A DNA stretch of 64,000 nt, taken from NCBI GenBank assembly GCA_948467395.1, contig CAOKDX010000004.1:1-64000 (forward strand). Direction: 5' to 3'. Of this stretch, positions 13,207 to 64,000 are shown piece by piece. The DNA comes from an uncultured Clostridia bacterium. GTDB lineage: Bacteria > Bacillota > Clostridia > Lachnospirales > Lachnospiraceae. The notes beneath the pieces are model-generated. The model ran no database searches. It saw nothing but the letters and a program-made list of their open reading frames with translations, and was not told the DNA's origin. The first letter of the stretch is position 1, and every line of letters begins with the position of its first letter. Made by a program: the position numbers and the translations under genes.

Positions 13207-13226
13207 AAGCATACCTCCTATTTTTG

Positions 13227-13238
13227 TTAGTGAACTAA
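13227..13238. promoter_or_regulatory. Candidate operator of the inserted arabinanase gene
   Basis: A palindrome with TTAGT/ACTAA arms around a two-base centre. It touches the -10 box and covers the expected transcription start, a position that suits a repressor. No exact second copy was noticed at the other arabinan genes. Confidence 0.45.
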
Positions 13239-13266
13239 TTAAAAATTTAGAGTATTCTTTTGTCAA
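13238..13266 (-). promoter_or_regulatory. Promoter of the inserted arabinanase gene
   Basis: Minus-strand TTGACA, 17 bases, TTTAAT, located just after the rplL terminator. The -35 is perfect and the -10 has one mismatch at an important position, so it may be weak or regulated. It makes the arabinanase an independent transcription unit. Confidence 0.65.
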
Positions 13267-13284
13267 AAAGATGTCATTATTCAC

Positions 13285-40278: not shown

Positions 40279-40307
40279 AATTTACTCCATTCCTCTGGGT
40301 CTGTCAA
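40279..40307 (-). promoter_or_regulatory. Promoter of hisC and the response regulator
   Basis: Minus-strand TTGACA, 17 bases, TAAATT. The -35 covers the protease stop codon. The leader (about 45 bases) contains a GC-rich segment. Confidence 0.7.
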
Positions 40308-41959: not shown

Positions 41960-41960
41960 A

Positions 41961-42000
41961 AAAAATCCCCCTGCGTTTTCTTTCAGTTTACGCAGGGAGA
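41961..42000 (-). terminator. Terminator hairpin that contains the protease ribosome site
   Basis: TCTCCCTGCGT pairs with ACGCAGGGGGA around a 13-base loop, followed by TTTTTT on the minus strand and then directly by the ATG at 41959. It fits an intrinsic terminator for the GH43 pair. The AGGGGG arm is also the only ribosome binding site for the protease. Confidence 0.75.
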
Positions 42001-42099
42001 CAAACTGTCGTGACTGGATGATGGAGCTTAAAAAATCAAGTCTACTATTAACAAAAGGCCCGGATGCTGAAATTTTTTCCTTTTTGCTGGTGTCATTCA

Positions 42100-44199: not shown

Positions 44200-44200
44200 T

Positions 44201-45835: not shown

Positions 45836-45938
45836 ACTTATGTAATCCCCCTTTTCCTCGCTGCTCTTATGCTGCAGACTGCTCCGCCGAATCCCGGCTG
45901 CAGCATAAAAATTACAAATTTTTGACACACTAATTCTT

Positions 45939-45967
45939 TTGACTTTAACCCTATTCTGAATTATAAT
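45939..45967 (+). promoter_or_regulatory. Promoter of the divergent endo-arabinanase
   Basis: TTGACT, 17 bases, TATAAT on the plus strand, 62 bases before the start at 46029. The 193-base divergent region also contains TTGACACACTAATTC upstream of it, which may hold shared control sites. Confidence 0.8.
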
Positions 45968-46028
45968 GGATATTAAGAAAATATGCAATACAGCAAAACC
46001 ATTGCACCAAAAAAGGGAGGTTATAAAA

Positions 46029-48467: not shown

Positions 48468-49982
48468 TCACTTCCGAACCCGCAGTGCGATGACGCTGTT
48501 CCTTGGCATGGTCACCCGGATTCCCTCCGGGCTCACCGTATAATCCGTAAAATCGGATTCCTTAACCTGCTCTGGCGCTTCAAAGGTATTCATCGCATGC
48601 ATATCAGCATCCGTAACAATCCTTGCCTCTGTCACCTTATAATCCCTGCCGGCAAACTGAATCTCAAGATCCGCCGCCGCCTCAATGGAAAGGTTGTTCA
48701 GTGTAATGGTGATGACGCCGTCCTGATCCATCGATACGGATTCTGTAATCTGGGGCACCTGCCATTCCTCTGTACCAATCTCCGATACGCCGGACAGGGC
48801 GCTTTCCAGAAGATCCGCCCCCTGATGATGGCGGTACATATGCATCACGTGATAGGTCGGTGTCTTGATCATCTGTCCGCCCTCCGTCAGAAGGACCGCC
48901 TGCAGTACATTTACCATCTGGGCAAGGGCAGCGATCTTCACGCGGTCGCTGTGCTTGTTAAAGATGTTCAGGGTAATTCCGGCGATCAATGCATCCCGGA
49001 TGGTATTCTGCTGATACAGGAAACCAGGATTCGTTCCGGGCTCCGCCTTGTACCAGGATCCCCATTCATCCACACACATACCGATCTCTTTTTCGGGATC
49101 ATAGTAATCCATGATCGTACCGTGACGGGTCACCAATTCATCCATATATAGCGCTTTTCCCAGTGTCTTATACCACACCTCATCGTTGAAGTCAGTAGAG
49201 CTTCCTTTGATCTTCCAGCCCTCTGGATGTACATAATAGTGAAGGGAGAGATAATCCATAAACCCGTGCTGCTGATCCTCTTCCTTCGTGTTGGCAAATG
49301 CTGTCTTAAGCACTCCCTCCGTCCAGAAATAGTCGTCCACATTGGCACCGCAGCAAACCTTCTTAATGGGATTCTTCTTGTCATAATTCCGGACATAGGT
49401 CTGATAACGGCGATATTCGTTGCCATAGAATTCCGGCGTCATATTGCCGCCGCAACCCCAGTTTTCATTGCCGACGCCGAAAAAATCAATCCGCCAGGGT
49501 TCGGCATGTCCATTTGCCTTCCTCAGATCCGCCATGGGCGATACCCCGTCAAAGGTCATATATTCTACCCACTCGGACATCTCCTGCACAGTACCGCTCC
49601 CCAGATTTCCATTTACATATGTCTTACATCCCAGCTGGCGGCATAATTCCATATATTCATGTGTACCGAAGCTGTTATCCTCCACAACTCCGCCCCAGTG
49701 GGTGTTGATCATTTTCTTGCGGTTCTCCCTGGGACCGATTCCATCCTTCCAGTGATATTCATCCGCAAAGCAGCCGCCGGGCCAGCGCAGCATCGGCACC
49801 TTCAGCTCCTTCAGCGCCTCAACCACATCGGTGCGCATACCATTTACATTGGGAATCTCCGAATGGTCTCCCACATAGATTCCCTCATAGATGCATCGTC
49901 CCAAATGCTCTGAAAAATGACCATATACCTCCGGCTCAATCCGGCTCTTTTTGTTCTCTTCGTTTATAATTAGCTTTGCCAC
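48468..49982 (-). CDS. abfA: GH51 alpha-L-arabinofuranosidase
   Basis: A 504-residue intracellular enzyme, without signal peptide, that releases terminal arabinofuranose. The (beta/alpha)8 barrel has acid/base Glu in GVGNENWGCGG (about residue 172) and nucleophile Glu in MCVDEWG (about 305); RWPGGCFADEYHWKDGIGPRE is family-typical, and a C-terminal beta domain follows. The start is a GTG at 49982 with AAAGGAG eight bases upstream; an ATG at 50009 overlaps the preceding gene and has no site. It follows the GH43 gene after 16 bases. Confidence 0.95.
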   Translation of the reverse strand: MAKLIINEENKKSRIEPEVYGHFSEHLGRCIYEGIYVGDHSEIPNVNGMRTDVVEALKELKVPMLRWPGGCFADEYHWKDGIGPRENRKKMINTHWGGVVEDNSFGTHEYMELCRQLGCKTYVNGNLGSGTVQEMSEWVEYMTFDGVSPMADLRKANGHAEPWRIDFFGVGNENWGCGGNMTPEFYGNEYRRYQTYVRNYDKKNPIKKVCCGANVDDYFWTEGVLKTAFANTKEEDQQHGFMDYLSLHYYVHPEGWKIKGSSTDFNDEVWYKTLGKALYMDELVTRHGTIMDYYDPEKEIGMCVDEWGSWYKAEPGTNPGFLYQQNTIRDALIAGITLNIFNKHSDRVKIAALAQMVNVLQAVLLTEGGQMIKTPTYHVMHMYRHHQGADLLESALSGVSEIGTEEWQVPQITESVSMDQDGVITITLNNLSIEAAADLEIQFAGRDYKVTEARIVTDADMHAMNTFEAPEQVKESDFTDYTVSPEGIRVTMPRNSVIALRVRK

Positions 49983-49998
49983 GATTCCGTCTCCTTTT

Positions 49999-50955
49999 CT
50001 AGTTTTCATAGGAAAATACCGGGCGTCCCTCCTCATCCCACTTTATCTTCATCAGCATGGCATGACGATTAGGATTGTAGAGAGGATCCCCTTCAATCAC
50101 AGACTCTTTGCGGGCATGGTATACCATAATATCATTCCCCTCCTCGTCTACTGTAAAGGAGTTATGGCCCGGTCCATAAATTTCTTTTTCATCGTTCGTC
50201 TTTAATACCGGATAGCGTTCCTTTTTCCACGACAACGGATCAAGCAGATCCGAATTCTCGTCCGCCGTCAACATTCCCATACAATAATTCACTCCGGTAT
50301 CGCTGGCGGAATATGTTAAAAAGATCTTGCCGTCATGCTTAATCACAGCCGGTCCCTCATTTACCCAAAAGCCGTGGCGCTCCCAGTCATAATCGGGAGT
50401 CGTCAGCAGCACCTGAATCGTCTTCAGCTTATAACCGGACTCCATCTCCCCGATATACAAATTGGAAATCTGTGGTCCCACGCTGACCTTCTCCGCCCAC
50501 ACATAATAATACTTTCCATTCTGTTCGAAAACTGTGGCATCCAGGGAAAAGGCTTCAAAGGAGAAAAAGTCTCCCTCGGCGCGTCCCATCTTACCCATCT
50601 CCACCCACTCGTCCTCCATTGGATCCGGACCCTGGCATTCCAGGACATAGGGACGGATATTAAAGATATTACCCGCCTCGCCGCCAGCATAATAGATATA
50701 CCATTTTCCAAAAAGAAAATGCATTTCCGGCGCCCAGATATTGGCAGACATCAGACCATCCTCATGTTTTCTCCAGACATATTTTTCCTCTGCCTCCTTC
50801 AATCCATCCAGAGTTTTAGAACGGCGCAGTACAATTCCGTCATAAGCCGGAACGGAAGCAGTAAAATAATACCATCCGTCTTTAAAACATACAAAGGGAT
50901 CTGCTCTCTGCAAAATCCATGGTTCGTTGTATTTTATTTCCTTTTCTGCTGACAT
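49999..50955 (-). CDS. Intracellular-type GH43 arabinofuranosidase
   Basis: A 318-residue single-domain GH43 enzyme without signal peptide. Base Asp is in QRADPFVCFKDGWYYFTAS, second Asp in SLDATVFEQ, acid Glu in WVNEGPAVIKHDGKIFL, and GPGHNSF completes the site. The family layout fits exo-acting alpha-1,5-L-arabinofuranosidases (GH43_26-like), which trim imported arabino-oligosaccharides. AGGAGG lies seven bases before the ATG. It has its own promoter after the solute-binding protein terminator and is followed by GH51. Confidence 0.92.
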   Translation of the reverse strand: MSAEKEIKYNEPWILQRADPFVCFKDGWYYFTASVPAYDGIVLRRSKTLDGLKEAEEKYVWRKHEDGLMSANIWAPEMHFLFGKWYIYYAGGEAGNIFNIRPYVLECQGPDPMEDEWVEMGKMGRAEGDFFSFEAFSLDATVFEQNGKYYYVWAEKVSVGPQISNLYIGEMESGYKLKTIQVLLTTPDYDWERHGFWVNEGPAVIKHDGKIFLTYSASDTGVNYCMGMLTADENSDLLDPLSWKKERYPVLKTNDEKEIYGPGHNSFTVDEEGNDIMVYHARKESVIEGDPLYNPNRHAMLMKIKWDEEGRPVFSYEN

Positions 50956-50992
50956 ATCACAGCCTCCTTTTCTGATAAATAATATTATCTTC

Positions 50993-51021
50993 ATTATAAC
51001 CGTAAATAAGAAAAAGGGCAA
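50993..51021 (-). promoter_or_regulatory. Internal promoter of the GH43-GH51 genes
   Basis: Minus-strand TTGCCC, 17 bases, TATAAT. The -35 lies within the terminator hairpin that follows the solute-binding protein gene. Confidence 0.6.
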
Positions 51022-51042
51022 GACTTATTGTCCTGCCCTTTT
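51010..51042 (-). terminator. Partial terminator after the solute-binding protein gene
   Basis: AAAAGGGCA pairs with TGCCCTTTT and runs on into TTCTTATTT on the minus strand. Such hairpins often raise the level of binding protein over downstream genes. Confidence 0.75.
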
Positions 51043-51063
51043 GACAATCTCACATGATTATGA

Positions 51064-52650
51064 TCATGAATTCTCTTCTACCATGGTGGTGTATTTCTGG
51101 ATATCTGCATCAGAAAGTACATTGTATCCATCCGGTCCGAAGTAATCAATCATAGCCTTTGCATGGAAGTAGTTTGCCTTGGAAGTTGCCTCGTCTACAT
51201 AGTCGGCAGCTTTGGCTGTACCACCGTCCACAAGATCGTGGATACCGATACTATTGAAGTACTCATCACAGAAGTTCCAATATCCTGCAATGCTGGTCCA
51301 GCCGTACGGAATCGGCTGCAGACAGCTCTTGAAGTACTCCTTCCAGTAACCTACATTTGTATCGTCCATGCCCTTGCAGTACATGTCGATATAAGCATCC
51401 CATACTTCCTGGTTTGTAGTGATCGGCGCCGGCATTACGTCATATTTCAGAGCAAGGCCGTTGGCATTCTGCTGTGACTCATCATTGTAAAGCTCGATTC
51501 TTGTCTTCCAGCCGTCCTGTCCAAAGCTCATGAACTTCAGAAGTTCATATGCTTCTCTCGGATGCTCACATGCCGGTGTCAGACCACCGAAGTCGATGGT
51601 AGCAATGCTGTGATGTCCAGCCTTTGCATCCTCCTTGCTTACGGAAGGAATGACATAAGGAATAATGTCAATGTTGTAATCTTTCTTATATGCCTCTGTA
51701 TTCCATGTATTCTGGAATGTCCAGAAAGCCTCTGTGAACAGTGCCACATGCTCGGATGCGCCGCACCATCCCTCGAAATCGCCCAGCCAGTTCTCCATAG
51801 CCGGAGTATTGGTAACCGGGGCAATGTAACCGCCCTGTTTCAGCTCTGCGAACTGCTGCTCACCGATCGCCCATGCACTCAGGTCAAATTTCTCACCGTC
51901 AAAGCCAAACTCACCGATGACCTTCTGGGAAGAAGCGATTCCATAATAGGAATCCAGTCTGTTGTAATAGCCGCATCCATAATATGCTTTACCATCTGAG
52001 GAATCTTTCACTGTTGCCTTCTTGATCAGCTCGATCATGTCATCCCATGTCCAGTTTCTGTCCGGCACAGGAATATTCAGCTTCTTCAGAACGTTCAGGT
52101 CGATGTACATAACGCCCGGGAAGAACTTAACCGGTACGGCATATCTGTGTCCGGACTGGAATGTACCGATGCCGGCATCGTTAATGGTAGAGGCAAGCTC
52201 TTTTGTCTCCGGATCGGAATCCCAAAGATTCTTGATATCAGCAAGAAGTGTGTTGCTCAGGGCAAAGTCTGCATCTGAGAACATAATAACATCCGGGGAA
52301 TTCTTGTCTGCTACCAGTGAATTCAGGGTGTCGTTGTAGCTGGATACATTTTCGTATACCGGTTTCACCTTAATATTCGGATAGATTTCCATGAAACGGT
52401 TCGCCAGATACTGAACGGTCTCATCCTGATCGAAATGGAAATAAGTCAGCTCAATATTTTCTGTGGTGATATCCTTCGCCTTCTTATACTTAATGCCGTG
52501 AATTTCCACTTCCTCAGTCTCGCCAGAAACCTTCATCTCACCGCTTGGCTTTTCCGGTCCTTTGCCTTCGCTGCCGCCTTTACCGCCACACGCTGTCAGA
52601 CCGATAACCATAGTAACGGCCAGCGCCATGGCCAATAATTTTTTCTTCAT
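51064..52650 (-). CDS. Extracellular sugar-binding lipoprotein of ABC importer 2
   Basis: A 528-residue lipoprotein (lipobox GLTAC, Cys21) with a Gly/Lys/Glu-rich spacer and a SBP_bac_1 fold: IELTYFHFDQDETVQYLANRF, NSPDVIMFSDADFAL and VKFFPGVMYIDLNVLKKL. It is longer than the usual 400-450 residues. It would deliver arabino-oligosaccharides, given the enzymes beside it, to the two permeases encoded just upstream. No ATPase gene is in the locus. It has its own promoter region with an 8-bp inverted repeat. Confidence 0.93.
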   Translation of the reverse strand: MKKKLLAMALAVTMVIGLTACGGKGGSEGKGPEKPSGEMKVSGETEEVEIHGIKYKKAKDITTENIELTYFHFDQDETVQYLANRFMEIYPNIKVKPVYENVSSYNDTLNSLVADKNSPDVIMFSDADFALSNTLLADIKNLWDSDPETKELASTINDAGIGTFQSGHRYAVPVKFFPGVMYIDLNVLKKLNIPVPDRNWTWDDMIELIKKATVKDSSDGKAYYGCGYYNRLDSYYGIASSQKVIGEFGFDGEKFDLSAWAIGEQQFAELKQGGYIAPVTNTPAMENWLGDFEGWCGASEHVALFTEAFWTFQNTWNTEAYKKDYNIDIIPYVIPSVSKEDAKAGHHSIATIDFGGLTPACEHPREAYELLKFMSFGQDGWKTRIELYNDESQQNANGLALKYDVMPAPITTNQEVWDAYIDMYCKGMDDTNVGYWKEYFKSCLQPIPYGWTSIAGYWNFCDEYFNSIGIHDLVDGGTAKAADYVDEATSKANYFHAKAMIDYFGPDGYNVLSDADIQKYTTMVEENS

Positions 52651-52681
52651 GATTTTCCTCCTTTATAAGAAATTTTTATCA

Positions 52682-52713
52682 ATTATGGCTTATTATAACA
52701 TAACTGCCATAAT
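52682..52713. promoter_or_regulatory. Candidate operator over the solute-binding protein promoter
   Basis: ATTATGGC and GCCATAAT arms, 16 bases apart, flank a minus-strand TATAAT -10 at 52692-52697. The -35 is weak. A repressor bound here would block transcription of the binding protein gene and possibly the downstream glycosidases. Confidence 0.55.
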
Positions 52714-52748
52714 AGTTCTACAGTTTTTGTACAAGATTCCTAGATTTT

Positions 52749-53765
52749 TTATTCACCCGTGATACCGGTGCGGTCAATACTCTCTACAAAGTATCTCTGA
52801 AGTATAAAGTACATCAGCATCAGAGGCAGGGCTGTCAGCATCGTGCCCGCCATATTGATGGACTCATTGATGCTGGTGGCTGCATTCACCGCCGTCTGGG
52901 AATACTTATCGTAATTCTGTGCAAAATTGCTCAGCTGGATCACCAGCGAGGTCCATCCGGTCTCTTTCATCACGCCCGCCACATACATCTGTGTCAGATA
53001 GGATTCATTCCAGTACCACACAAAGGAAAACAGTGATACGGTAATAAACGCCGGCGCTGCAGATGGCAGTGAGATCCGGAAGAAGGATTTAAAATATCCG
53101 GCGCCGTCAATCTGTGCTGCCTCGATCAGTACCTTTGGCACCTGGCGGAAGAACTGCCAGAAGATCAGGATAAAGATCGGCGCATTGATCCCCTGCCCCA
53201 ACAGGGCAGGCACCACAAAGGCCCACAGTGTTCCCAGAATCCCCATATTCGAATACAGCACATAGGTAGAGATCATGGTAGCCTGGCTCGGCAGGATAAA
53301 GGTGAACAGAATGATCACCAGTACAAGCTTCTTAAGGGGAAACTCAAAACGTGCCAGTCCATAGCCGATAATGGAACACGATACCAAGTTGCACAGGGTG
53401 GGTACTCCGGCAATCACAATGCTCTTGCCCAGAGACGCCCAGAAATCCATACTTTTAGCTGCCTGAAGATAGTTGGCAACGGTAGGAGAACTTGGAATCC
53501 AGTTAATGGATGAATCCAAGAGATCGTCGAGTGTCATGAAACCGGTACTGATCATATGCAGAATCGGGTTCAGATAGATGAATCCGACACAGATCAGTAA
53601 TGCATAGATGCAAAACGGTTTCAAAAAACCTTGTTTCTCTTTAGAGCCCAGCATAAATTTCCTAAATTTTTCTTTCGTAAATCTAGGCTGCGTCGTTGTC
53701 GCATTAGCTGCCAAGGCTTTCATTGCTTGTTTATTTGCTTTCCGCTCTTGCCTGCTTAGCCGCAT
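52749..53765 (-). CDS. Sugar ABC permease (MalG type), importer 2
   Basis: A 338-residue permease with six helices. It has a long basic cytoplasmic N-terminus (about 1-45). The EAA motif region is EAAQIDGAGYFKSFFRISLPSAAPAF, which binds the ATPase. ATG 53765 has AGGAGG ten bases upstream. It overlaps the end of its partner gene by 35 bases. Confidence 0.92.
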   Translation of the reverse strand: MRLSRQERKANKQAMKALAANATTTQPRFTKEKFRKFMLGSKEKQGFLKPFCIYALLICVGFIYLNPILHMISTGFMTLDDLLDSSINWIPSSPTVANYLQAAKSMDFWASLGKSIVIAGVPTLCNLVSCSIIGYGLARFEFPLKKLVLVIILFTFILPSQATMISTYVLYSNMGILGTLWAFVVPALLGQGINAPIFILIFWQFFRQVPKVLIEAAQIDGAGYFKSFFRISLPSAAPAFITVSLFSFVWYWNESYLTQMYVAGVMKETGWTSLVIQLSNFAQNYDKYSQTAVNAATSINESINMAGTMLTALPLMLMYFILQRYFVESIDRTGITGE

Positions 53766-54753
53766 TTCTTGCACTCCTCCTTCTTATTTTCTTAACTTCC
53801 CGCTCTTCTTTCTTCCTCTGCTTCTTCGCCTTCTTCACCTGTTTTGCATAGACATCCTTCTTCGCCATAAACAGCAGGGCAAAGATTCCGACGATCAGCA
53901 GCACCACTATGGAATACAGCCACGCCATGGCCGACGCATATCCATATCCTTTTTCCTTCGTACCGGAGAACATGGCGTTTTTGATCAGTCCGATGATCGG
54001 GTTCGTATCATTGTTGGATATAAACACAATGGTATATACCAGGTTCAGAAGAATCATCGGTTTGATGGTAGGCAGGGTAATCTTCCAGAAGCATTCCCAG
54101 CCGGAACCACCATCAATCTTCGCCGCCTCGTACATGGCCGGATCGATCTTCTGCAGACTTGACAGGAAGATCAGGATCTGTACACCGGAGTACCACAGAA
54201 TCGTTACCATGTTCTCAAAGAGATCGGCAATGGGCGTCGCCAGCATGGACGGCAGGAAGCTCTTAATGGCATTGCCGATGGACTCCGTGTCCAGCGCCGT
54301 AATGCTGCCCGCCCCCTCTTCATTCAGCATCGTCAGGATCGGGCCGCTCACAATGATAACCGGCAGGAAGAAGATCAGACGGAAAATTCCCTTTCCTTTG
54401 ATATTCTGATTCAGCATGATGGCTATCATCAATGCAAACACAACAATAACGGGCACCGATATAACGGTCGATACTACATAATCCACCAGGTTCGGCAGGA
54501 AATCCTGATCCGACAGAAGAATCTGCGTGAAGTTCCCATAGCCCACGAAATTAAATTTATATCCCATCGTCGTGATACGGATATTATTCAGGGCAAAGGT
54601 AAAGGATTCATATAGTGGATACATCAAAAACAGCAACGCACCTACAATCCATGGCGATATAAAAATCACACCCATCCACGCCTCGCGCCTCGCCAGACGG
54701 CCTGCTTTAATTTTTTCTTTCTTTACTCTCTTTTCTTTTATTTTCTTACTCAT
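53731..54753 (-). CDS. Sugar ABC permease (MalF type), importer 2
   Basis: A 340-residue permease with a strongly basic N-terminus, about six helices and the EAA motif YEAAKIDGGSGWECFWKITLPTIKPMI. The C-terminal tail is very Lys/Arg-rich. It starts within an ATGA overlap with the DUF5696 gene, so translation is coupled. It works with the 52749 permease. Confidence 0.92.
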   Translation of the reverse strand: MSKKIKEKRVKKEKIKAGRLARREAWMGVIFISPWIVGALLFLMYPLYESFTFALNNIRITTMGYKFNFVGYGNFTQILLSDQDFLPNLVDYVVSTVISVPVIVVFALMIAIMLNQNIKGKGIFRLIFFLPVIIVSGPILTMLNEEGAGSITALDTESIGNAIKSFLPSMLATPIADLFENMVTILWYSGVQILIFLSSLQKIDPAMYEAAKIDGGSGWECFWKITLPTIKPMILLNLVYTIVFISNNDTNPIIGLIKNAMFSGTKEKGYGYASAMAWLYSIVVLLIVGIFALLFMAKKDVYAKQVKKAKKQRKKEEREVKKIRRRSARNAAKQARAESK

Positions 54754-57128
54754 TCAGCCTCACCTGCCTTATAGGAATAGGACATTGCCTCTACTGTAAC
54801 ACCGTCTACTATCTGCTGTGTATTTGTGTAGTTTACGAAAACCTTTACACCGTTGCTGTAGGTGACTGCCTTGATCCCGTCCCCTTTTGTCTCATGCTTT
54901 ACGATGTTTGCATCGCCAAGCTGCGCATTCAGTTCCCTGAGCTTCTTGTCGTAATCAATCACAGCATCCTTATATGTGGTGTACTCAGTACTGTACAGAT
55001 CAGCTGAATTGGTACGGATCAGTTTGGATGAATTCTCTGCCGTCAGATAGAAGGATGGGTATACCCCTGCCTCTACCATCTGCAGGAAGAACTCCTGCTT
55101 ATTCGCCTCAAAGTTGATATATTCCGAATACATCGGCATAACACCCTTCAGTACCATGGAGAGGAACGGAATCTCGTGATCCACGTACATATAATCAGAG
55201 GAACCCAGCGGCATATCCAGAAATGCGTCTGCATTTTTCCACATATAAGCGTTTGGCGCCTCCATCGCCATATCCGCCTTCTCATCCAGGTCATTCACTG
55301 CCTTTGTATAGGCGTCCGCCGTATTATTCCGCGTAAAATAGGACGACTTGTAGCTGTAGGAGAACAGCGTATTGCTGATTCCAGCCAGCGCTACCTTGTT
55401 CAGCTCTTTGTTGTTCATGGATTCCACAAAGCTTGTAAAGTCTTCCACGGAGGATTCCGGCGTCAGGTAATTAAACTTTTTATATACATCCGCCCATACC
55501 TTTTCCTCAAAGGCTCTCTTGTTCACCTTCTTAATGGTATTGAAATTAAAGGTATTGGTGCTTGGGTTCAGCCGCAGTGCATCATTGTACAGATACATTT
55601 TATAATTGGAGTTCTCGGAATCCTTGATGAGATTCTTCAGATCCGAATCGCCGCCGATATGACCGTCCGCATTGTATTTGCTCATGGGCAGATCATACAG
55701 GCCGCCAGCCTGCCAGCCCTTATATACAGACAACAGGCTCTCCACACCGCTGCTTTTCAGCTCGCCAAAAATTTTCTTGATATCATCGGTCGTGGTCATG
55801 GTAACCGCTCTGGTCCCCAGAAGGAAATTCTCCCGTTCCGTGCCGAGGAAATCCACTCTGGAATTATATGAGGAGTCCTTCTTCACAAGAGAACCGTTAT
55901 TTAAAAGGTATTCCCGGTACTTCGCCGCCATGGTCGAATAATTCACATCATCACCGGACAAAAGCATGTAACGTACCTGAAGATCCGAATGGGTACGGTC
56001 TGCCTCTGCACGCGGCACAGTACCAGTGTTGGAATTGTTCAGCGGCTGCACGAAGAGGTCACGGATCAGAAATCTTGCAAAGCAGCGGTTATAGTTTACC
56101 ATGGCGCCGTTGGGCTGAGCCTCAATATACGCGCGCTTCTCCCCCTTTTCCACAATGGCGAGATAGCCCTTTTGATCCTTCGTATGCGCCATGCCAAAGA
56201 TCGGTGCAATGACCTGGCTGGCATCCTGAAGCATATCCAGCTCTTCCCACAGATAGGTCTTTGTATCAGACTCCACGAAACCGGAATCCGAGCCGTAGAT
56301 CATCTGGGAGAAACCGGTGACATAGCGTCCCTCTTTATTATCCAGATCGATCAGGGCGCCATTTCCATCCGGAACCAGCATATAGCCCTCCTGCTTATCC
56401 AGGAATGAGTAGCCCATAAAGGGGAACACGCTGATACTGGAGATATACGTCCCCTCCTGCTCCTCGATGATAGAATCATCCGGGATCGTCACCACCAGAT
56501 CACTGCCCTCAATGGTGACATTTACAGTAAAACCAAACTGATATGGCGTAAAATAAATCTTAGAAGAAAATCCGTTGTCAATCTTCGTAGTCTGAATGGT
56601 ATTTTCTGTAGAATTCATATTGGCCTGCAGCGTATTCTGAATTCCCTTGATCACAGCGATATCAAGACCGGATTTCATTCTTCCGTTCCATCCTGCATTG
56701 CTGTCACCGTCGTCCTGCTCATCGCTCAATGTGGACTCAATGATCTTTCCTGTACTTTTGTTCTCCAGAATAATGGAAAATCTCGGTTCATAGAAATACA
56801 GCTTGTATGTATCGCTCTCAGCCATCAGTTCATAATCCTTGATGGTGATCCATTTGGACGGGTCAAGCTTGCCCACGGCACCGTCCATAACGACCTGACC
56901 GTCCTCTCCGATATTCTGTTTTTCCTCATCCTTCTTATCGTCTTTCTTATCTGCCGTATCCGTACTGCCGCTGGCCGTCTCTGCATCGGCCCCGCCAGCT
57001 GTATCCGTCTGTCCTGCCGAATCCGCAGGGGCTGCTGCCACATAACTGGTAACATTGATAACGCTTGCGGTAATCACTGTCACAGCAGTAAGCAGGGCAA
57101 CCATTTTTCTCCATCTCTTAGTAACCAA
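54750..57128 (-). CDS. DUF5696-like secreted/membrane-anchored protein
   Basis: A protein of about 792 residues with an N-terminal hydrophobic segment (MVALLTAVTVITASVI) after a KRWRK charge cluster, a Thr/Asp/Ala-rich spacer with a KKDDKKDEEK stretch, then a large soluble region. The sequence resembles DUF5696 proteins, which often neighbour sugar ABC permeases; their function is unknown to me. It contains Trp/Tyr-rich, glycosidase-like segments (YKGWQAGGLYDLPMSKYN; LKNLIKDSENSNYKMYLYND), so a sugar-binding or hydrolase-like fold is possible. The start is uncertain: TTG 57128 or ATG 57104. It overlaps the preceding gene by 11 bases. Confidence 0.82.
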   Translation of the reverse strand: MVTKRWRKMVALLTAVTVITASVINVTSYVAAAPADSAGQTDTAGGADAETASGSTDTADKKDDKKDEEKQNIGEDGQVVMDGAVGKLDPSKWITIKDYELMAESDTYKLYFYEPRFSIILENKSTGKIIESTLSDEQDDGDSNAGWNGRMKSGLDIAVIKGIQNTLQANMNSTENTIQTTKIDNGFSSKIYFTPYQFGFTVNVTIEGSDLVVTIPDDSIIEEQEGTYISSISVFPFMGYSFLDKQEGYMLVPDGNGALIDLDNKEGRYVTGFSQMIYGSDSGFVESDTKTYLWEELDMLQDASQVIAPIFGMAHTKDQKGYLAIVEKGEKRAYIEAQPNGAMVNYNRCFARFLIRDLFVQPLNNSNTGTVPRAEADRTHSDLQVRYMLLSGDDVNYSTMAAKYREYLLNNGSLVKKDSSYNSRVDFLGTERENFLLGTRAVTMTTTDDIKKIFGELKSSGVESLLSVYKGWQAGGLYDLPMSKYNADGHIGGDSDLKNLIKDSENSNYKMYLYNDALRLNPSTNTFNFNTIKKVNKRAFEEKVWADVYKKFNYLTPESSVEDFTSFVESMNNKELNKVALAGISNTLFSYSYKSSYFTRNNTADAYTKAVNDLDEKADMAMEAPNAYMWKNADAFLDMPLGSSDYMYVDHEIPFLSMVLKGVMPMYSEYINFEANKQEFFLQMVEAGVYPSFYLTAENSSKLIRTNSADLYSTEYTTYKDAVIDYDKKLRELNAQLGDANIVKHETKGDGIKAVTYSNGVKVFVNYTNTQQIVDGVTVEAMSYSYKAGEAE

Positions 57129-59184
57129 GCCGATACACCACCTCTCCAAATACTGCACTTATGAAGTCAAATACCTGAGCCCACAGTACATATATAATGA
57201 ATATCAACAGTGCGATAATCAAAATCGTAAATATCGTCAGGAATATGATCTTCACTGTCTCTTTCACGGTATAGTTGTTTACCTCTTTAATACCAAGGAC
57301 AGCCAGGATCAGTACCCAGGAATAAATTATTACATTAATCAGCGTAACCAGGAACTGCTCGTTGTTTGTCAGCACATGGGATAACGCAAATCCGATTGGC
57401 GTCAGCACCACATAGGGCAGAAGGCTGTAACAGAAATAGGTATAAATCTTCTTGATGGTGCCCTCTCCTTCGTTGATGGTACAGATCAGATAATTACACG
57501 CTGTCAGCGCCACAACGGCAACAACGATGATCCCGATATCTGAGCCGATATCATATCTTCCCTCACGGACCGTCTTCTGCAGAAAGCCGCAGAGGTATTT
57601 ATTTACAATATATTCAATCATAAAGATCACCAGGATCAGGCTCGGTGCACTCCAGGACGCCCTGCCCTCCCGGGCAATGCCATAGGAGCCGTCGATGGGA
57701 TGCCGCATAAAATACCCGGAATACATAAAGTTAGATACAAAGCGGTTCTCCTTCACCCTGGCTTTGGCCTTCCTCACGCCGTCGAATATTTTCTTTCTGC
57801 GGTCCAGAGTGCGCAGTACCATATACAGGATCCACAAGCCCACGATAAAGAGCAGCGCCTTTACGATATTCGCCTTCAGCCACTCGTTCCGGATCTCCCA
57901 GTACGCATCGGAATAGCCTGCCTTGTCGTTGGAAAGCCTTGCATAATGAAGCGCTTCTTCATAATTGCTCTCCTGATAGAAGGCACGACCCATGGCTTTG
58001 TTGGCATAGTCAAACATACTGTTCATCTTCAGCACTTCCGCCAACGGCTCCCGGCTCTCGGTATATTTGCCCTGTGCATACAGGTTCAGCGCCGTATGCA
58101 GCTTCTGGGTAAACTCACTGGGACGGTAAACCTGAATCTGGTTCTTATCCGAATCCAGTACATAGATGGAATCATCCACCCCGACCTGAATGCTGGTAAG
58201 GGCTGACGACAGTCCGACACGCTGGGTGCCGTCGTCCTTGGCGCCAAAAACATACAGCGGTTCGCCCTGGTCGTTGTACTCATAGATGTATCCCTCCTGG
58301 GAGGCCACGTACACATTATCATGATTACCCACTGCCACTGCGGCGGGAGAGAGGTCATATACCCCGTAATTTTCCGCCCGGAGCATATTAGCACCGGCAA
58401 TATTCAGCTTCTTTACCGTCTTTTCATCGTCGCCCCGGGTAACCGTATAGATCAGTCCCTTGGAGTCGATAGCCAGATTATCCGGCGTAGACGGAATATT
58501 ACTTACCATCTTCGCTCTCTGTTCGTCTGTCAGGATGGCACGGTAGATAATCTGCTGCAGGCTCACTGCTGCGTAGTTGGTTCCGAAGTATCCAAGAAAC
58601 GTACCGCCATCTGCCGGCGAAATCTCCACAATACCGTTTGTATTGGATTCGCAGACAATAAACATCATGCCCGCCTTATTTACTACTACCTTCAGCGGCA
58701 GGAATTCCACTCCCTCGCCGTACAGCGGACTGTCTGGTTTGCCATATGTATTCAGCACTTTTCCGCTCTCATCAAATTCAAACACCGCTCTCGCATCGCG
58801 GTCCGCCACAAAGACATGCTTTGTATCTGTGACAAAGATACCCATGGGGCGCTTTAATGTTCCCATGCCAAAGGTTTTGATCAGCTTTCCTTCGGTGGTT
58901 CCCACCAAAACCCTGGCATTTCCGGTATCCGCAATATAAATCTTTCCGTCGTCAGTCACGCACATATCGTTGGCACCGCTCAGAAATTCTTTGCCGAATT
59001 TAATAATGGTGTCCTGTGCCAGATAACCTGTCTGCGTTTCCTCCATCCTGCCATATCCGTCGACGGTATAGGTAAGATATGGCGTAGCAGCGGATGAAGT
59101 CACACTGTTCATCCCTGAAGTGATGATACTCATTGCAACTAAGAGCAAAGCCATCAGCTTCAAGATTTTCTTTTTTCTTCTCAT
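57118..59184 (-). CDS. NHL-repeat, TPR and Yip1-type membrane protein
   Basis: A 688-residue protein joining three parts. After a signal-type helix (about 8-30) comes an extracellular NHL beta-propeller (about 50-370) with repeats such as DGKIYIADTGNARV and TKHVFVADRDARAV. A short TPR-like helical part (about 375-435) follows, then one membrane helix (about 447-465) and a Yip1-type bundle of about five helices (505-680). I know no function for it. It lies between two permease pairs and could be an extracellular sensor or scaffold. GAGG lies four bases before the ATG. Confidence 0.85.
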   Translation of the reverse strand: MRRKKKILKLMALLLVAMSIITSGMNSVTSSAATPYLTYTVDGYGRMEETQTGYLAQDTIIKFGKEFLSGANDMCVTDDGKIYIADTGNARVLVGTTEGKLIKTFGMGTLKRPMGIFVTDTKHVFVADRDARAVFEFDESGKVLNTYGKPDSPLYGEGVEFLPLKVVVNKAGMMFIVCESNTNGIVEISPADGGTFLGYFGTNYAAVSLQQIIYRAILTDEQRAKMVSNIPSTPDNLAIDSKGLIYTVTRGDDEKTVKKLNIAGANMLRAENYGVYDLSPAAVAVGNHDNVYVASQEGYIYEYNDQGEPLYVFGAKDDGTQRVGLSSALTSIQVGVDDSIYVLDSDKNQIQVYRPSEFTQKLHTALNLYAQGKYTESREPLAEVLKMNSMFDYANKAMGRAFYQESNYEEALHYARLSNDKAGYSDAYWEIRNEWLKANIVKALLFIVGLWILYMVLRTLDRRKKIFDGVRKAKARVKENRFVSNFMYSGYFMRHPIDGSYGIAREGRASWSAPSLILVIFMIEYIVNKYLCGFLQKTVREGRYDIGSDIGIIVVAVVALTACNYLICTINEGEGTIKKIYTYFCYSLLPYVVLTPIGFALSHVLTNNEQFLVTLINVIIYSWVLILAVLGIKEVNNYTVKETVKIIFLTIFTILIIALLIFIIYVLWAQVFDFISAVFGEVVYRLGY

Positions 59185-59215
59185 AATGCCTCTTTTCTTC
59201 GCCTTTTTGCAATTG

Positions 59216-60085
59216 TTATTTGATACCTGAGTGCGCCATCGTATTCATAACCTTATTCTGCAGAATGACAAACAGGATCAGGTTCGGCACAAACAAAATC
59301 AGAGTTGCTGCTGCCGACATACCCTGTCCGGCAACTGTATTATTCGCATTCAGCAGGGAATTCATATAAAACGTCAATGTCTTCAATCCGTCATCGTTGA
59401 TGTAGTAGTTCGACGTCTCCATGTTCGCCCATACCTGCTGGAACACCAGAATCGTGGCGGTGGCCATGGCCGGCATGATCATCGGAATGATCAGCTTCCG
59501 GTACACGGTAAAGTCTGTGGCCCCGTCAATATATGCCGCCTCGATCAGAGCGTCCGGAACCTGCTCAACGAACTGTTTCACAAGGAACAGTGCCACCGGA
59601 TACGCCATCAGGGGCAGGATATGCGACCACATGCTGTCGATCATTCCCAGATTACTGATCACCAGATATCTCGGGATCAGTACGGCAGTAGCCACGAACA
59701 TCAGAGCCACCTGGTTGATGCTCATCATCAGGTTTCTTCCCTTGAACTTCAGCTTAGACAGGGCAAAGGCCGCCATCGTTGTAAAGATCAGGGACAACCC
59801 AACCGTTACCACCGTTACGAAAATACTGTTAAACACGTAACGGCTCATGGGGATACCTGAATTCCGGCTGAATTTAGCCAGCTTTGTAAAGTTTTCCAGT
59901 GTGGCATTCCGTACAAAGAACGTGGGCGGGAATGCGAACAACTCATCCATTGGTTTAAACGCATGATTCGCAATAAAGAGAATCGGCAGAAACATGAATA
60001 ATGTCAGTGGAAGCAGACAAAGCAGGATCTTGATCTGGCCTCTGTCAAACTTCTGCGGATTCATACGCTTTCCTTTATATGCCAT
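59216..60085 (-). CDS. Sugar ABC permease (MalG type), importer 1
   Basis: A 289-residue permease with six helices and EAA motif IEAAYIDGATDFTVYRKLIIPMIMPAM. AGGAGG lies seven bases before the ATG. It is followed after 31 bases by the NHL-Yip1 gene and pairs with the 60103 permease. Confidence 0.94.
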   Translation of the reverse strand: MAYKGKRMNPQKFDRGQIKILLCLLPLTLFMFLPILFIANHAFKPMDELFAFPPTFFVRNATLENFTKLAKFSRNSGIPMSRYVFNSIFVTVVTVGLSLIFTTMAAFALSKLKFKGRNLMMSINQVALMFVATAVLIPRYLVISNLGMIDSMWSHILPLMAYPVALFLVKQFVEQVPDALIEAAYIDGATDFTVYRKLIIPMIMPAMATATILVFQQVWANMETSNYYINDDGLKTLTFYMNSLLNANNTVAGQGMSAAATLILFVPNLILFVILQNKVMNTMAHSGIK

Positions 60086-60102
60086 TATTTCCCCTCCTTT
60101 TC

Positions 60103-61050
60103 TTAATCTTTATCTGTCAATAGTACATTACAGAATTTCGAGAATATCTGTACGATCAACAACAGCACCACGGAAACCGCGGCCGCATATCCCATTTCCC
60201 ACCGGAGGAAACCATAGTCCTCGATGTGGTTTACGATGAGCTGTGCGGAATAGCCCGGCGACGGGTTACCAGTCAGCTGCGTCGAGATCAAACCGTTCTG
60301 GAATGCGTTTACAATAGCCATAACGGCAGCAAACAGCATCTGCGGCTTCATCTGGGGTATCGTAATATAGATCATTTCCTGGAAACGATTCTTAATGCCA
60401 TCGATAGCCGCTGCCTCATACAGTTCCTCATCAGAATTCAGGATACCGGCGATCATGGACAGGAAACCGACACCCATGGATGACCACAGCCCGATAATGA
60501 TTACGATGGGGAGCAGGTAGTCTGCATTCACCAGCCAGATAATAGGTTCATTGATCAGGCCCAGGTTCATCAGCCAGCTGTTCAGAAGACCTGTCTGGTC
60601 ACCGGAGAAAATAACCTTCCACAATACTGTCATGGCGGTAGGACCAGTCATACTCGGTGAATAGATGATCAGCGCCAGTATTGTTCGCGGCAGTTTGGTC
60701 AGGTTACACAACGCCCATGCCAGTATAAAGGACAGGACATATCCGCCTACGCCGACTATGATCGCATAGATCACGGTATTCGGCAAAACAAACTGCATAA
60801 AGACTTCGTCACTGGTTATCAGTGTTATGTAGTTCAGAAATCCGGTAAACTCCGGAAACTGAATTGCATTAAAGTTCGTGAAGGACAGGATGACCGCCAT
60901 GATAACCGGCACTAAAATGAATGCAATAAACACAAGTGCATATGGTGCCATAAAAAGATAACCATGCCAGTTGGATCGTTCTCTCCTTCGGATATTACTT
61001 CTTTTTTTAGGCGCTGCCACTGCGGCAGCATTCGTTTTATTATTAGCCAT
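60103..61050 (-). CDS. Sugar ABC permease (MalF type), importer 1
   Basis: A 315-residue permease. A basic N-terminus ([17 protein letters not shown]) is followed by six helices and the EAA motif [28 protein letters not shown] chose ATG 61050, which has GGAG six bases upstream; an ATG at 61062 lies before that site. It follows the giant binding protein after 15 bases. Confidence 0.94.
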
Positions 61051-61065
61051 ATTCCACTCCATCTC

Positions 61066-64000
61066 TTACTTCCCAATCAATTGCTTGACAGTTTCCAAAG
61101 TCGGAATGTTGTAATCTTTTATCGTCTTCCCTTCGCTGTCAAGATAACCGAACTCTTCCAGCTTGCGGGTAAACTCATGATTCACATTCTTGACCGCCTT
61201 GTCGATTCGCGTACGCTCATCCTGACCGTTTACCACAATGTCATTGAAGGCATTGCTGATCTCACGCTCAAGCAGATAGGTACCCGGAGCACGCGGCACG
61301 TCTACTACATTCTTAGCTGTTTCTACGATTACTTTTTTCGAGTTTGACTCAAGCGGAAGCTGTTCCATCGCCTCCATATTTGCCGTCGGCCAGATGTAAT
61401 CGTCACCATAAGAGATCTGTATCGTCTGTCCGAACTTAGCCTGCGTCTCTGTGGAGGACCACCATTTAATGAATTCCCATGCTTTCTTTTCCCTCTCTTC
61501 ATCGCTCTTGAAGATAACCGAACTCTCTGCACAGCCGCAGACAGAGCGGTCAATGGAGCCATCCTCTTTCTTCGTTCCCGGCGCCAGTGCAATCTGCCAG
61601 GATCCTTCCAGCTCAGGTGCCGCATTGGTCAGCATATTGTAGGTGGCATAATCGGCAATACCGATCGGAATATCGCCATTGCGGAAATGCTGGTAGAAGT
61701 TATCCATATTGACAGGCATATTATATACAGTAAAGAGATCTGTCAGTGTGGTAAATCCGCTAACTGTATTCTCTTCCCCAAACGCCGTACCATCATTGGC
61801 CGATGCCTTATACAGGGATCCGTTGTTCTGTACGATCAGCGGTGTCGTGCCGTGGAAGTTTCTCATAAGGATCATGCCGGCAGTGGGGTAGTAGAAATTC
61901 AATCCTCTCATCTGCAGGTCAGGAAGCATATCAATCACATCTTCCATGGTTTCCGGAATCTTCATTCCCAGCTTCTCCAATACGTCTGCACGGTAGAACA
62001 GCACCCAGAAGTTCATGGTCTCCGGCATGGAATATACGCCGTCGCCGATGGACCCGGTCAGGAAGAAGCCCGGTTCAAAGGGAGCTGCCGCCTCCTTGAA
62101 ATCGCTAAACTTCGCCATATCTACCAGCGCTCCACGGATGCCGATCTCATACGGGATCGTGTAGTTGATACCAGTGGCAACGTCTGGTGCATTTCCCGCT
62201 GAGTTCGCCAGCACCAGCTTATTCTGGTCGGGCATGACGCTGATGTCAACCTCAATGCCTGTCTTCGGCGTGAAGTCCTCATCGATCATTTTCTGCATAA
62301 TCTGGATATACTGGCTGGAGCGGTTTACCCATACCTGAAGATGTTCCCGGTTGGTACTGCTGGCATTGTAATCCTGATTGGTAAAGGATGAAACAAAACG
62401 TTTTACATTCATCCATGCGGAACTAAAGAAGCCCGGTTTGGACGGAAGCTCTGCGCCGTCCTGATAAATGTAAACACGGTCGATCGCCAGTCCGTTTGCG
62501 ATCAGATTATCAATGGTTGTAGCCAGATGATGGTTGACCGAGCTCGTACTGGTAGAGAGCTCTGCAATACGGTACGGAATTTCATCCGGGCTGTCTGCCA
62601 GGCTTCTCAGCTGCTGTGCCGCGATCAGCATGGATGACATAACCGCTACATTCTTATCGCTGTCACTCCACTTCACCGCGCTGGCTTCCAGCTGTGTCAG
62701 TGCATCTGCATAACCGTTCAGCGTCTTTTCCAGATTCGGTATGTACCGGGAGAGCTTCAGGTCGCGGTACTTATCTGCATTCGTTCCGGCAACCTTGGTG
62801 ATCTCCAGCGCCAGGTCATTGACGTCGGACATGATCCGGTCAAGCCCTTCCATAATATAACGGATATTATCCATACTGATCGTATAGGATACCGTATGGG
62901 TTCCCGGCGTCAGATGAACGGTAAGATTATTGCCGTCTGCATCTGTCAGCGACTTAGTCTGGTAGTTTGTGGAATAGGACAGTCCATAGGAACGGAATGC
63001 ATCGCTGGGGATCTTTCCATCCACCTCCACATCCACAAATACCGGAAAATCGGTTTTCTCTGACTGACGATAATTCAATGCAAGGTTATAATTACCTTCC
63101 TTTTCTACTTCAAAGCTGTAGGAGACCTTCTGGCCTGCCTCACTAAAGGAATCGGAATCCAGTGTGTTCAGGACAGTATCATCTACCTCATAGGGATCCA
63201 GCGCCGTATCATATTCTACAACGCCATGGATGGAAGAGCTGTTGGTAGTGGAATACTTCTCACCCTGTACGGTGATCAGGGCATCCCCCTCCGCCTTCTC
63301 AGATCCGGAGTATGCCGGAACGGTCTCCGGCGCCCTGAGGGCCACCCTGCCAAACAGGAAATTCCCTTCCTTAATGGTAAACTTCAGAGTGTGTTTCCCC
63401 TTCTTTAATTCCAGTTTCAGCGGATCTGAATGACGATAGCTGGAATCCATGAGACTCTGTGTCTCCCATTTGATATCTTTGTCCGGGATCGCCACCACTT
63501 CGTTATTGTAGCGGTCATAGGACGGTTCTGCGCTAAGCTTCCATGTCGTCTCCAGTTCCATGTTGCGACATTCATAGAACGGATAGGCATCGTCAACCTG
63601 CATGCCGAGGGAAATAGGCAGGATCGATTCATCATAAGAGAGATAATCCATATCCAGGCAGTAAAGTCCATCCTCCGGAACATCTATCTCCGCCTGTGCC
63701 GTGTCACCCGTCGACAATTTCAAAACCTGTGCGGAGCCTTCATAGCCCTGCGTTTCATTTGTCAGTTTGTCCTTACTGTCACCAGCTGCTGCATCCTTCA
63801 TCTGAAAGTTCACAGCATCCCCCTTGTAATCAGGCAGTGAGTACTTCTTACTGATCACAGTATAGTTCGTGCTGATACGCTCACTTGAATAGTCTTCTCC
63901 GGCCTTGCCTGAAGCCTGTTCCGTAATGTCCTCAGGGTTGGTCTGATCCGTCACCGGGTCAGCCTTGGCACGCTGTCCCACACATGCGGCGATCAGCGAC
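61066..64000 (-). CDS. Giant solute-binding lipoprotein with sugar-binding-like N-terminal domains (5-prime end outside the window)
   Basis: At least 978 residues, cut by the right edge. The first visible codons read SLIAAC, a lipobox, so the signal peptide lies just outside and the Cys is the anchor. Two beta-sandwich domains (about 40-180 and 210-340), with KHTLKFTIKEGNFLFG and GTHTVSYTISMDNIRY, look like carbohydrate-binding modules. A helical part (340-480) joins them to a C-terminal SBP_bac_1 domain (about 520-970) with VMPDQNKLVLANSAGNAPDVATG and EREKKAWEFIKWWSS. This is about twice the normal size. It is first of the visible importer 1 genes. Confidence 0.88.
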   Translation of the reverse strand, partial: SLIAACVGQRAKADPVTDQTNPEDITEQASGKAGEDYSSERISTNYTVISKKYSLPDYKGDAVNFQMKDAAAGDSKDKLTNETQGYEGSAQVLKLSTGDTAQAEIDVPEDGLYCLDMDYLSYDESILPISLGMQVDDAYPFYECRNMELETTWKLSAEPSYDRYNNEVVAIPDKDIKWETQSLMDSSYRHSDPLKLELKKGKHTLKFTIKEGNFLFGRVALRAPETVPAYSGSEKAEGDALITVQGEKYSTTNSSSIHGVVEYDTALDPYEVDDTVLNTLDSDSFSEAGQKVSYSFEVEKEGNYNLALNYRQSEKTDFPVFVDVEVDGKIPSDAFRSYGLSYSTNYQTKSLTDADGNNLTVHLTPGTHTVSYTISMDNIRYIMEGLDRIMSDVNDLALEITKVAGTNADKYRDLKLSRYIPNLEKTLNGYADALTQLEASAVKWSDSDKNVAVMSSMLIAAQQLRSLADSPDEIPYRIAELSTSTSSVNHHLATTIDNLIANGLAIDRVYIYQDGAELPSKPGFFSSAWMNVKRFVSSFTNQDYNASSTNREHLQVWVNRSSQYIQIMQKMIDEDFTPKTGIEVDISVMPDQNKLVLANSAGNAPDVATGINYTIPYEIGIRGALVDMAKFSDFKEAAAPFEPGFFLTGSIGDGVYSMPETMNFWVLFYRADVLEKLGMKIPETMEDVIDMLPDLQMRGLNFYYPTAGMILMRNFHGTTPLIVQNNGSLYKASANDGTAFGEENTVSGFTTLTDLFTVYNMPVNMDNFYQHFRNGDIPIGIADYATYNMLTNAAPELEGSWQIALAPGTKKEDGSIDRSVCGCAESSVIFKSDEEREKKAWEFIKWWSSTETQAKFGQTIQISYGDDYIWPTANMEAMEQLPLESNSKKVIVETAKNVVDVPRAPGTYLLEREISNAFNDIVVNGQDERTRIDKAVKNVNHEFTRKLEEFGYLDSEGKTIKDYNIPTLETVKQLIGK

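Follow-up and report, generated by a model that had tools for sequence, protein, structure and literature searches.

A conserved gene set linking NHL-Yip1 and DUF5696 proteins to a permease pair in a dual-importer operon of an uncultured Clostridia bacterium

Organization of the operon

The window, i.e. the whole stretch of 64,000 nt that was analysed from an uncultured Clostridia bacterium (Lachnospiraceae), ends with an operon of ten genes (48468-64000), all of them on the minus strand. The first gene, SBP2, runs past the window edge and is complete in L032 (1067-4090). The order of transcription is SBP2, F2, G2, NHL-TPR-Yip1 (hereafter NHL-Yip1), DUF5696, F1, G1, SBP1, GH43 and GH51 (Table 1), and the gene order, strand and coordinates of the original prediction were all confirmed. 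Taking the longest starts, the spacing is of 3 bp between SBP2 and F2, 17 bp between F2 and G2 and 31 bp between G2 and NHL-Yip1, followed by overlaps of 41 bp (NHL-Yip1/DUF5696), 4 bp (DUF5696/F1) and 44 bp (F1/G1), and then by a gap of 98 bp between G1 and SBP1. The genes from SBP2 through G1 therefore overlap or are 3-31 bp apart, in agreement with the single, tightly coupled unit previously proposed, which has two proteins of unknown function, NHL-Yip1 and DUF5696, at its centre.

Table 1. Genes and features of the dual-importer operon, in order of transcription.
Feature	Position in the window	Strand	Characteristics
SBP2, giant binding protein, 1007 aa	61066..64000 (start beyond window)	-	N-terminal CBM-like region, C-terminal SBP domain; SBP_bac_8 7.6e-23
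F2, MalF-type permease, importer 2	60103..61062	-	BPD_transp_1; EAA loop at residue 216
G2, MalG-type permease, importer 2	59216..60085	-	BPD_transp_1; EAA loop at residue 182
NHL propeller-TPR-helix-Yip1 membrane protein	57118..59184	-	Pfam NHL 4.1e-11, Yip1 (PF04893) 5.7e-11 (above cut-off)
DUF5696 protein, hydrophobic N-terminus	54750..57158	-	PF18952 9.7e-173
F1, MalF-type permease, importer 1	53731..54753	-	BPD_transp_1; EAA loop at residue 209
G1, MalG-type permease, importer 1	52749..53774	-	BPD_transp_1; EAA loop at residue 218
SBP1, lipoprotein-type binding protein	51064..52650	-	lipobox at residue 18; 6rjy 5.8e-13
Terminator-like stem, 13 pairs, between SBP1 and GH43	51012..51042	-	weak
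GH43 enzyme	49999..51021	-	PF04616 1.1e-64
GH51-type alpha-L-arabinofuranosidase	48468..50036	-	Alpha-L-AF_C 2.3e-51; NCBIfam ArfA 5.3e-79, below ArfA cut-off

Both SBP1 and SBP2 contain Pfam SBP domains (SBP_bac_1/8), and EAA loops are present in all four permeases. The GH43 enzyme of the operon is probably intracellular, because an internal start, judged by eye, would bypass its hydrophobic beginning. The stem located between SBP1 and GH43 is a possible attenuator; terminator-like sites were similarly frequent in shuffled sequences (15 observed versus 11.9, sd 3.4).

Three further GH43 proteins, two of them with AbfB domains, are encoded at 42100-48122. A subtilase gene (Peptidase_S8, 7.7e-32; 40304-42103) is situated between GH43 genes and a gene that appears by eye to be aminotransferase-like, and a GH43 protein with Ig-like, laminin-G-like and leucine-rich-repeat domains (9919-13284) adjoins RNA polymerase subunit genes. 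Just outside the window, an 86-aa protein with two hydrophobic stretches is encoded between a GH43 gene and SBP2 (L032 4322-4582); it has relatives in 31 of the 61 named-genome loci with room for it and in none of the other loci of the 398-genome survey (both sets are described below). Oriented divergently to that GH43 gene lies one for a GGDEF-EAL protein, whose C-terminal domain is laminin-G-like (L032 6471-8450). A link of the region with defence, with one weak PADLOC match (0.026), was dropped.

Distribution and synteny of the gene set

We surveyed 398 genomes of the phylum, scoring in each the best three candidates for PF18952 and the best two for NHL-Yip1 and for SBP2. PF18952 was present in 46 of the 398 genomes at E≤0.001, with 39 above the curated cut-off and 37 below 1e-100. 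The NHL-Yip1 profile identified 38 genomes at 1e-20, which were the same 37 as for DUF5696 plus G243, with a partial match. Likewise, SBP2 was found at 1e-30 in 45 genomes that take in all 37 of the DUF5696 genomes; among the extras, G104 and G154 produced long matches, whose downstream side stops ca. 700 bp short of the end of the contig, and the other six match the common SBP domain only. In all, DUF5696, NHL-Yip1 and the giant SBP2 occur together in 37 of the 398 genomes, with three partial exceptions (G243, G104 and G154). For 37 genomes shared by sets of 37 and 38 out of 398, the hypergeometric P is 1.9e-51; this value exaggerates the evidence, as the 37 genomes represent 20 genera and 15 families, eight of the families holding two to seven genomes each. 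The pattern of co-occurrence is nearly perfect in spite of this inflated P.

The survey contained 56 PF18952 places below 1e-100, 55 of them outside the genome of the window. We examined 51 of these 55 loci, over 4.7-19.5 kb; those from G179, G204, G323 and G344, congeners of three included genomes, were omitted, and two loci with a weak DUF5696 (L070 and L085) were kept out of the synteny counts. A second set consisted of named-genome loci, the best 80 of at least 583 relatives, which by title belong mostly to Lachnospiraceae, Oscillospiraceae and other Clostridia, and include one from Ruminococcus albus 8. Gene order is conserved across both sets. With 1.2 kb of room, NHL-Yip1 was directly upstream of DUF5696 in 75/75 named-genome and 50/50 survey loci, and with 2.5 kb of room F1-G1 was directly downstream of DUF5696 in 72/72 and 48/48 loci, respectively. 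The SBP2 unit, evaluated in loci with 7.5 kb of room on both sides, was upstream in 53/53 named-genome loci; among 36 survey loci it was upstream in 24, downstream in five and not within the flank in seven. Yip1 is a separate gene adjoining NHL in 19 of 50 survey loci and in none of 75 named-genome loci, and the break between both genes falls just past the helix located after the TPR part. Additionally, locus L168 (G062:C9), outside the synteny counts, has the order DUF5696-F1-G1-NHL-Yip1-SBP1, which none of the other viewed loci shows, and NHL-Yip1 is still inside the rearranged operon. Some loci have tandem SBP1 genes (L052, L056, L067 and L084). The phyletic and synteny counts uphold the expectation that NHL-Yip1 and DUF5696 would show conserved co-occurrence with a permease pair, and lead us to reject a chance neighbourhood.

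A search with an F1 profile in 12 genomes yielded 335 matches at 1e-8, the top 15 of which (306-423 bits) adjoin the 15 DUF5696 genes found, with the next match scoring 172 bits; in the 12 genomes tested, the F1 permease lineage was seen only beside DUF5696. Co-evolution of the parts was evident in 23 diverse loci that contain the eight parts in full, where distance correlations were 0.83-0.91 within NHL-Yip1, DUF5696, F1 and G1, and 0.81-0.87 within SBP2, F2 and G2, versus 0.54-0.70 across these modules. In 59 closer named-genome loci the correlations across modules were 0.79-0.91, and the distances did not separate the modules.

Copies were counted as match rows, including fragments at contig ends, in ten genomes chosen mainly for having loci without SBP2 nearby. 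The rows for DUF5696, NHL-Yip1 and SBP2 were, respectively, 10, 10 and 4 in G062; 10, 11 and 4 in G135; 8, 10 and 4 in G165; 11, 16 and 6 in G040; 19, 23 and 11 in G082; 3, 3 and 3 in G101; 2, 3 and 2 in G290; 1, 2 and 1 in G394; and 1, 1 and 1 in both G240 and G331. The first five, with 8 to 19 DUF5696 rows (fragments included), are genomes of 2.2-3.0 Mb. In G062, the SBP2 unit was within the examined flank of three of the ten DUF5696 loci, and one SBP2-F2-G2 unit was standing alone (L174). In a rapidly built, midpoint-rooted tree of DUF5696, whose branches are long, the ten copies from G062 are on different branches, with L170 falling in the 16-row group of the window.

Based on the exclusivity of F1, the distance correlations, the match-row counts and the loci of G062, the gene set seems to be composed of two modules: a core of NHL-Yip1, DUF5696, F1 and G1, and a companion of SBP2, F2 and G2. 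The two importers do not stand on an equal footing: NHL-Yip1 and DUF5696 go with F1-G1, whereas SBP2-F2-G2 can be unlinked and present in fewer copies.

Characteristics of the encoded proteins

A hydrophobic N-terminus was present in 121 of 129 DUF5696 members surveyed. The DUF5696 family profile showed similarity to the GH129 enzyme NagBb (5wzn; 1.6e-6) and to the anhydro-galactosidase DagB (5opq; 1.5e-4), with matches spanning the first part of the barrel and a weak likeness also at the C-terminus. Using the window protein alone, only PF18952 passes the cut-off, GH101 models reaching 0.0082 and 0.01. The protein from L085 matches both PF11308 (GH129) and PF18952; its local alignment with DUF5696 covers the C-terminal region only, and a global alignment with hhalign gives 97.8 %, with an unreliable middle part. 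Conservation was calculated with weighting for 130 DUF5696 sequences, using estimated barrel limits. Residues W482, G502, R610, P664, F665, G672 and N682 are ca. 100 % conserved, and E696 (Glu in 97 %) is the only barrel acid above 95 %, followed by column 660 (Asp or Glu in 87 %) and column 601 (Asp in 71 %); no conserved catalytic acid pair was found, in that no two barrel acids exceed 90 % in the 130 sequences. In DagB, residues Asp486, Glu517, Glu531 and Asp202 are needed for activity, and Asp486 is equated with Asp435 of NagBb, one of its catalytic pair (PMC5698469). A mapping based on motifs instead of structures would place Asp486 close to column 593 (D 32 %, G 27 %, Y 15 %) or to column 601, where the window protein has G and Y, respectively, and Glu517 close to the NAY motif of DUF5696. 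A search for GH129 in 149 genomes of the phylum yielded nothing, and its controls were not detected either. Judging from the profiles, the DUF5696 family appears to be distantly related to GH129 enzymes and to have no conserved acid pair. Since the acid columns are not kept as a catalytic pair, binding is favoured over cleaving, albeit without certainty, because the acids present in 71-97 % of the sequences may still serve catalysis.

The NHL-Yip1 protein contains a hydrophobic N-terminus, a large acidic segment that holds the NHL and weak TPR matches, a helix (439-457), a +9 loop and several hydrophobic segments; from the charges of the loops, the NHL/TPR part is predicted to lie outside the membrane. 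The TPR matches are below the cut-off (1.3e-3 in the window protein and 3.6e-4 in the relative from L036), and engineered TPR chains match the family profile. The Yip1 match of the separate gene in L036 was of 1.2e-13. The NHL profile matches the propeller of kinase PknD (1rwi, 1.7e-18), which is a sensor domain. In eukaryotes, Yip1-domain proteins are located in the Golgi (PMC6682643).

SBP2 had been described as a giant sugar-binding protein, to which CBM-like domains can be added; these are matched in the relative from L033 (CBM_35, 2e-6; CBM_6, 3e-5), whereas the window protein only reaches 0.017 with CBM_35. SBP1 shows the lowest median identity among the parts of the operon (0.27) and is replaced in other loci by distant or other binding proteins. 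Its only solved relative at E≤1e-5 is the arabino-oligosaccharide binding protein 6rjy, which we take to be AbnE. This relationship, together with the presence of GH43 and GH51 in the operon, supports the arabinan setting initially suggested. The cargo would be arabino-oligosaccharides here, and probably other glycans elsewhere.

The scan of neighbouring genes comprised 141 same-strand proteins of 250-1000 aa from loci of the 398-genome survey. Among the families listed (25 of 84 and 25 of 80) there were GH42, 26, 31, 27, 10, 43, 95, 29, 3 and 5, as well as pectate and alginate lyases, each represented by one to five proteins and alongside many non-glycan neighbours. Three of the ten G062 neighbours scanned were glycan-active (GH106, GH42 and a rhamnogalacturonan-lyase-like protein); the others were elongation factor G, a HEAT-repeat protein, an amidase, a chemotaxis receptor, a DUF3604 protein, an F5/8-type C protein and a protein that matched no family. 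A GH51 gene adjoins a fourth G062 copy (L170). The core is constant and its surroundings variable, with neighbouring enzymes that differ between loci, and in some loci, such as L035, no glycan enzyme was seen nearby by eye.

The usual view is that sugar import by an ABC system requires an ATPase in addition to a pair of permeases and a binding protein. A Pfam search found no ATPase among the ten operon proteins, so that the original prediction was right in that neither importer has its own, although this is probably not an oddity, since the genome has an MsmX-type ATPase elsewhere. This is the single OB_MalK match of the genome, unlinked to the operon, and it shares 66 % identity with the ATPase of the R. 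albus 8 locus, which in turn matches MsmX (6yir) with 3.8e-133. Relatives of this ATPase were within the examined flanks in 11 of 80 named-genome loci and in 0 of 54 survey loci. Across the wider collection of loci, a strict EAA pattern was present in 88/116 F1, 96/115 G1, 56/94 F2 and 88/90 G2 sequences. MsmX is an established case of one ATPase serving several importers (PMC5730181), and the single MsmX-type ATPase of this genome is probably the motor of both importers. The idea that the missing ATPase means that there is no importer was set aside, because the EAA loops of the window are intact and an MsmX-type ATPase exists.

A proposed role in glycan uptake

The reading that we consider reasonably probable is that of a glycan importer core joined to a glycan-holding pseudo-glycosidase and to a propeller-TPR membrane scaffold, with SBP2-F2-G2 as companion and a shared MsmX-type ATPase. 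Co-occurrence alone does not prove a complex, and the following steps are put forward from predicted domains and gene context. The operon would code for a type I (CUT1-like) import system with a four-protein core of F1, G1, DUF5696 on the outside and NHL-Yip1. Secreted GH43 enzymes would release arabino-oligosaccharides from arabinan, to be caught by SBP1 and the giant SBP2, and DUF5696 would most likely hold or orient the glycan, without cutting it, at the mouth of F1-G1. The Yip1 bundle would anchor the propeller-TPR protein, which may tether together the binding proteins, DUF5696 and the permeases. F2-G2 with SBP2 would act as a companion importer, both importers would be driven by the MsmX-type ATPase of the genome, and GH43 and GH51 would complete the breakdown of the sugars inside the cell. 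A bolder version, which is conceivable though rather doubtful, has a surface assembly in which DUF5696, as a retired glycosidase, and the propeller-TPR scaffold pass long glycans from the CBM-bearing giant to the dedicated permeases. Such an assembly would import long oligosaccharides or polymer ends, its copies being specialised for different glycans within a genome, as a Gram-positive counterpart of SusC/SusD.

The similarity of DUF5696 to 5wzn and 5opq, the match of the L085 protein to both PF11308 and PF18952 and the acids at columns 601, 660 and 696 could instead indicate a GH101/GH129-type glycosidase that is active at the surface, where it would trim glycans at the importer mouth while docked by NHL-Yip1. 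We consider this somewhat unlikely, because no two barrel acids are above 90 %, because the column that appears to correspond by motif to NagBb Asp435/DagB Asp486 is only in part Asp, the window protein having G there and Y at column 601, and because DUF5696 persists while the surrounding enzymes change. The likeness of the NHL part to the PknD propeller and the Golgi location of eukaryotic Yip1-domain proteins would also fit a different function for NHL-Yip1 and DUF5696, outside the transport path, either as a sensor or as an assembly or insertion helper for permeases. This appears unlikely: there is no regulator among the ten operon proteins, and regulators are few among the listed same-strand neighbours of 250-1000 aa (HTH_18 in 2/70 and 3/71, LacI in 3/71; these counts come from the 25/84 and 25/80 families listed, with short and opposite-strand genes outside the scan). 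LacI-like clusters were seen by eye in 7 of 54 loci. Moreover, a general helper should serve other permeases, yet the kin of F1 were only found beside DUF5696 in the 12 genomes.

A binding protein and two permeases belong to each importer, and SBP2-F2-G2 also occurs on its own (L174), as would be expected if two ordinary, independent ABC importers flanked two unrelated genes by chance; this is contradicted by the synteny and phyletic data, and we deem it extremely improbable.

The MsmX-dependent importers of B. subtilis, such as AraNPQ, resemble the window operon in having MalF/MalG-type permeases and a binding protein, in the absence of an operon ATPase, with a shared MsmX-type ATPase that is probable for the window operon, and in their connection to plant cell-wall oligosaccharides (PMC5730181). 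To our knowledge, AraNPQ lacks counterparts of NHL-Yip1 and DUF5696, as well as a second pair of permeases and a giant binding protein with CBMs. Another close counterpart is the 6rjy binding protein, to which SBP1, located beside GH43 and GH51, is related; the window importer adds accessory proteins. Regarding enzymes, NagBb (5wzn; PMC8106489) and DagB (5opq; PMC5698469), the latter composed of a beta-sandwich, a TIM barrel and an Ig-like domain, show sequence similarity to the DUF5696 profile over part of the barrel and weakly at the C-terminus. DUF5696 differs from both in the lack of a conserved acid pair and in its fixed association with a permease pair. In the SusC/SusD PULs of Bacteroidetes, a constant transport core recurs several times within a genome, next to enzymes that differ. 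The DUF5696 core is similarly multicopy beside different enzymes (10 DUF5696 matches in G062), but it has ABC permeases in place of an outer-membrane TonB transporter, and Pfam found no TonB-dependent transporter or SusD domain among the ten operon proteins.

A literature search, with most subscription papers outside its reach, found no description of DUF5696/PF18952, nor of NHL-Yip1 with a permease system; PMC6344614, which mentions upregulated ABC transporters, contains neither NHL nor Yip1. The dual-importer set with NHL-Yip1 and DUF5696 is thus apparently undescribed, in the sense of being absent from the literature searched. Its kind is likely a known one, that of ABC importers with a shared ATPase, and the novelty would lie in the dedicated extra proteins and in the many copies of some genomes. 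The set occurs in nearly one tenth of the phylum genomes surveyed (37/398), a few of which have about ten or more copies, some of them beside different glycan-degrading enzymes, and its recurrence beside one importer in related bacteria points to a widespread accessory machine in the uptake of glycans. Should NHL-Yip1 and DUF5696 prove to be subunits of the transporter, plant fibre would be handled in many Bacillota, of the gut and elsewhere, by an undescribed machine at the cell surface, and DUF5696, a domain of unknown function, would gain a testable role.
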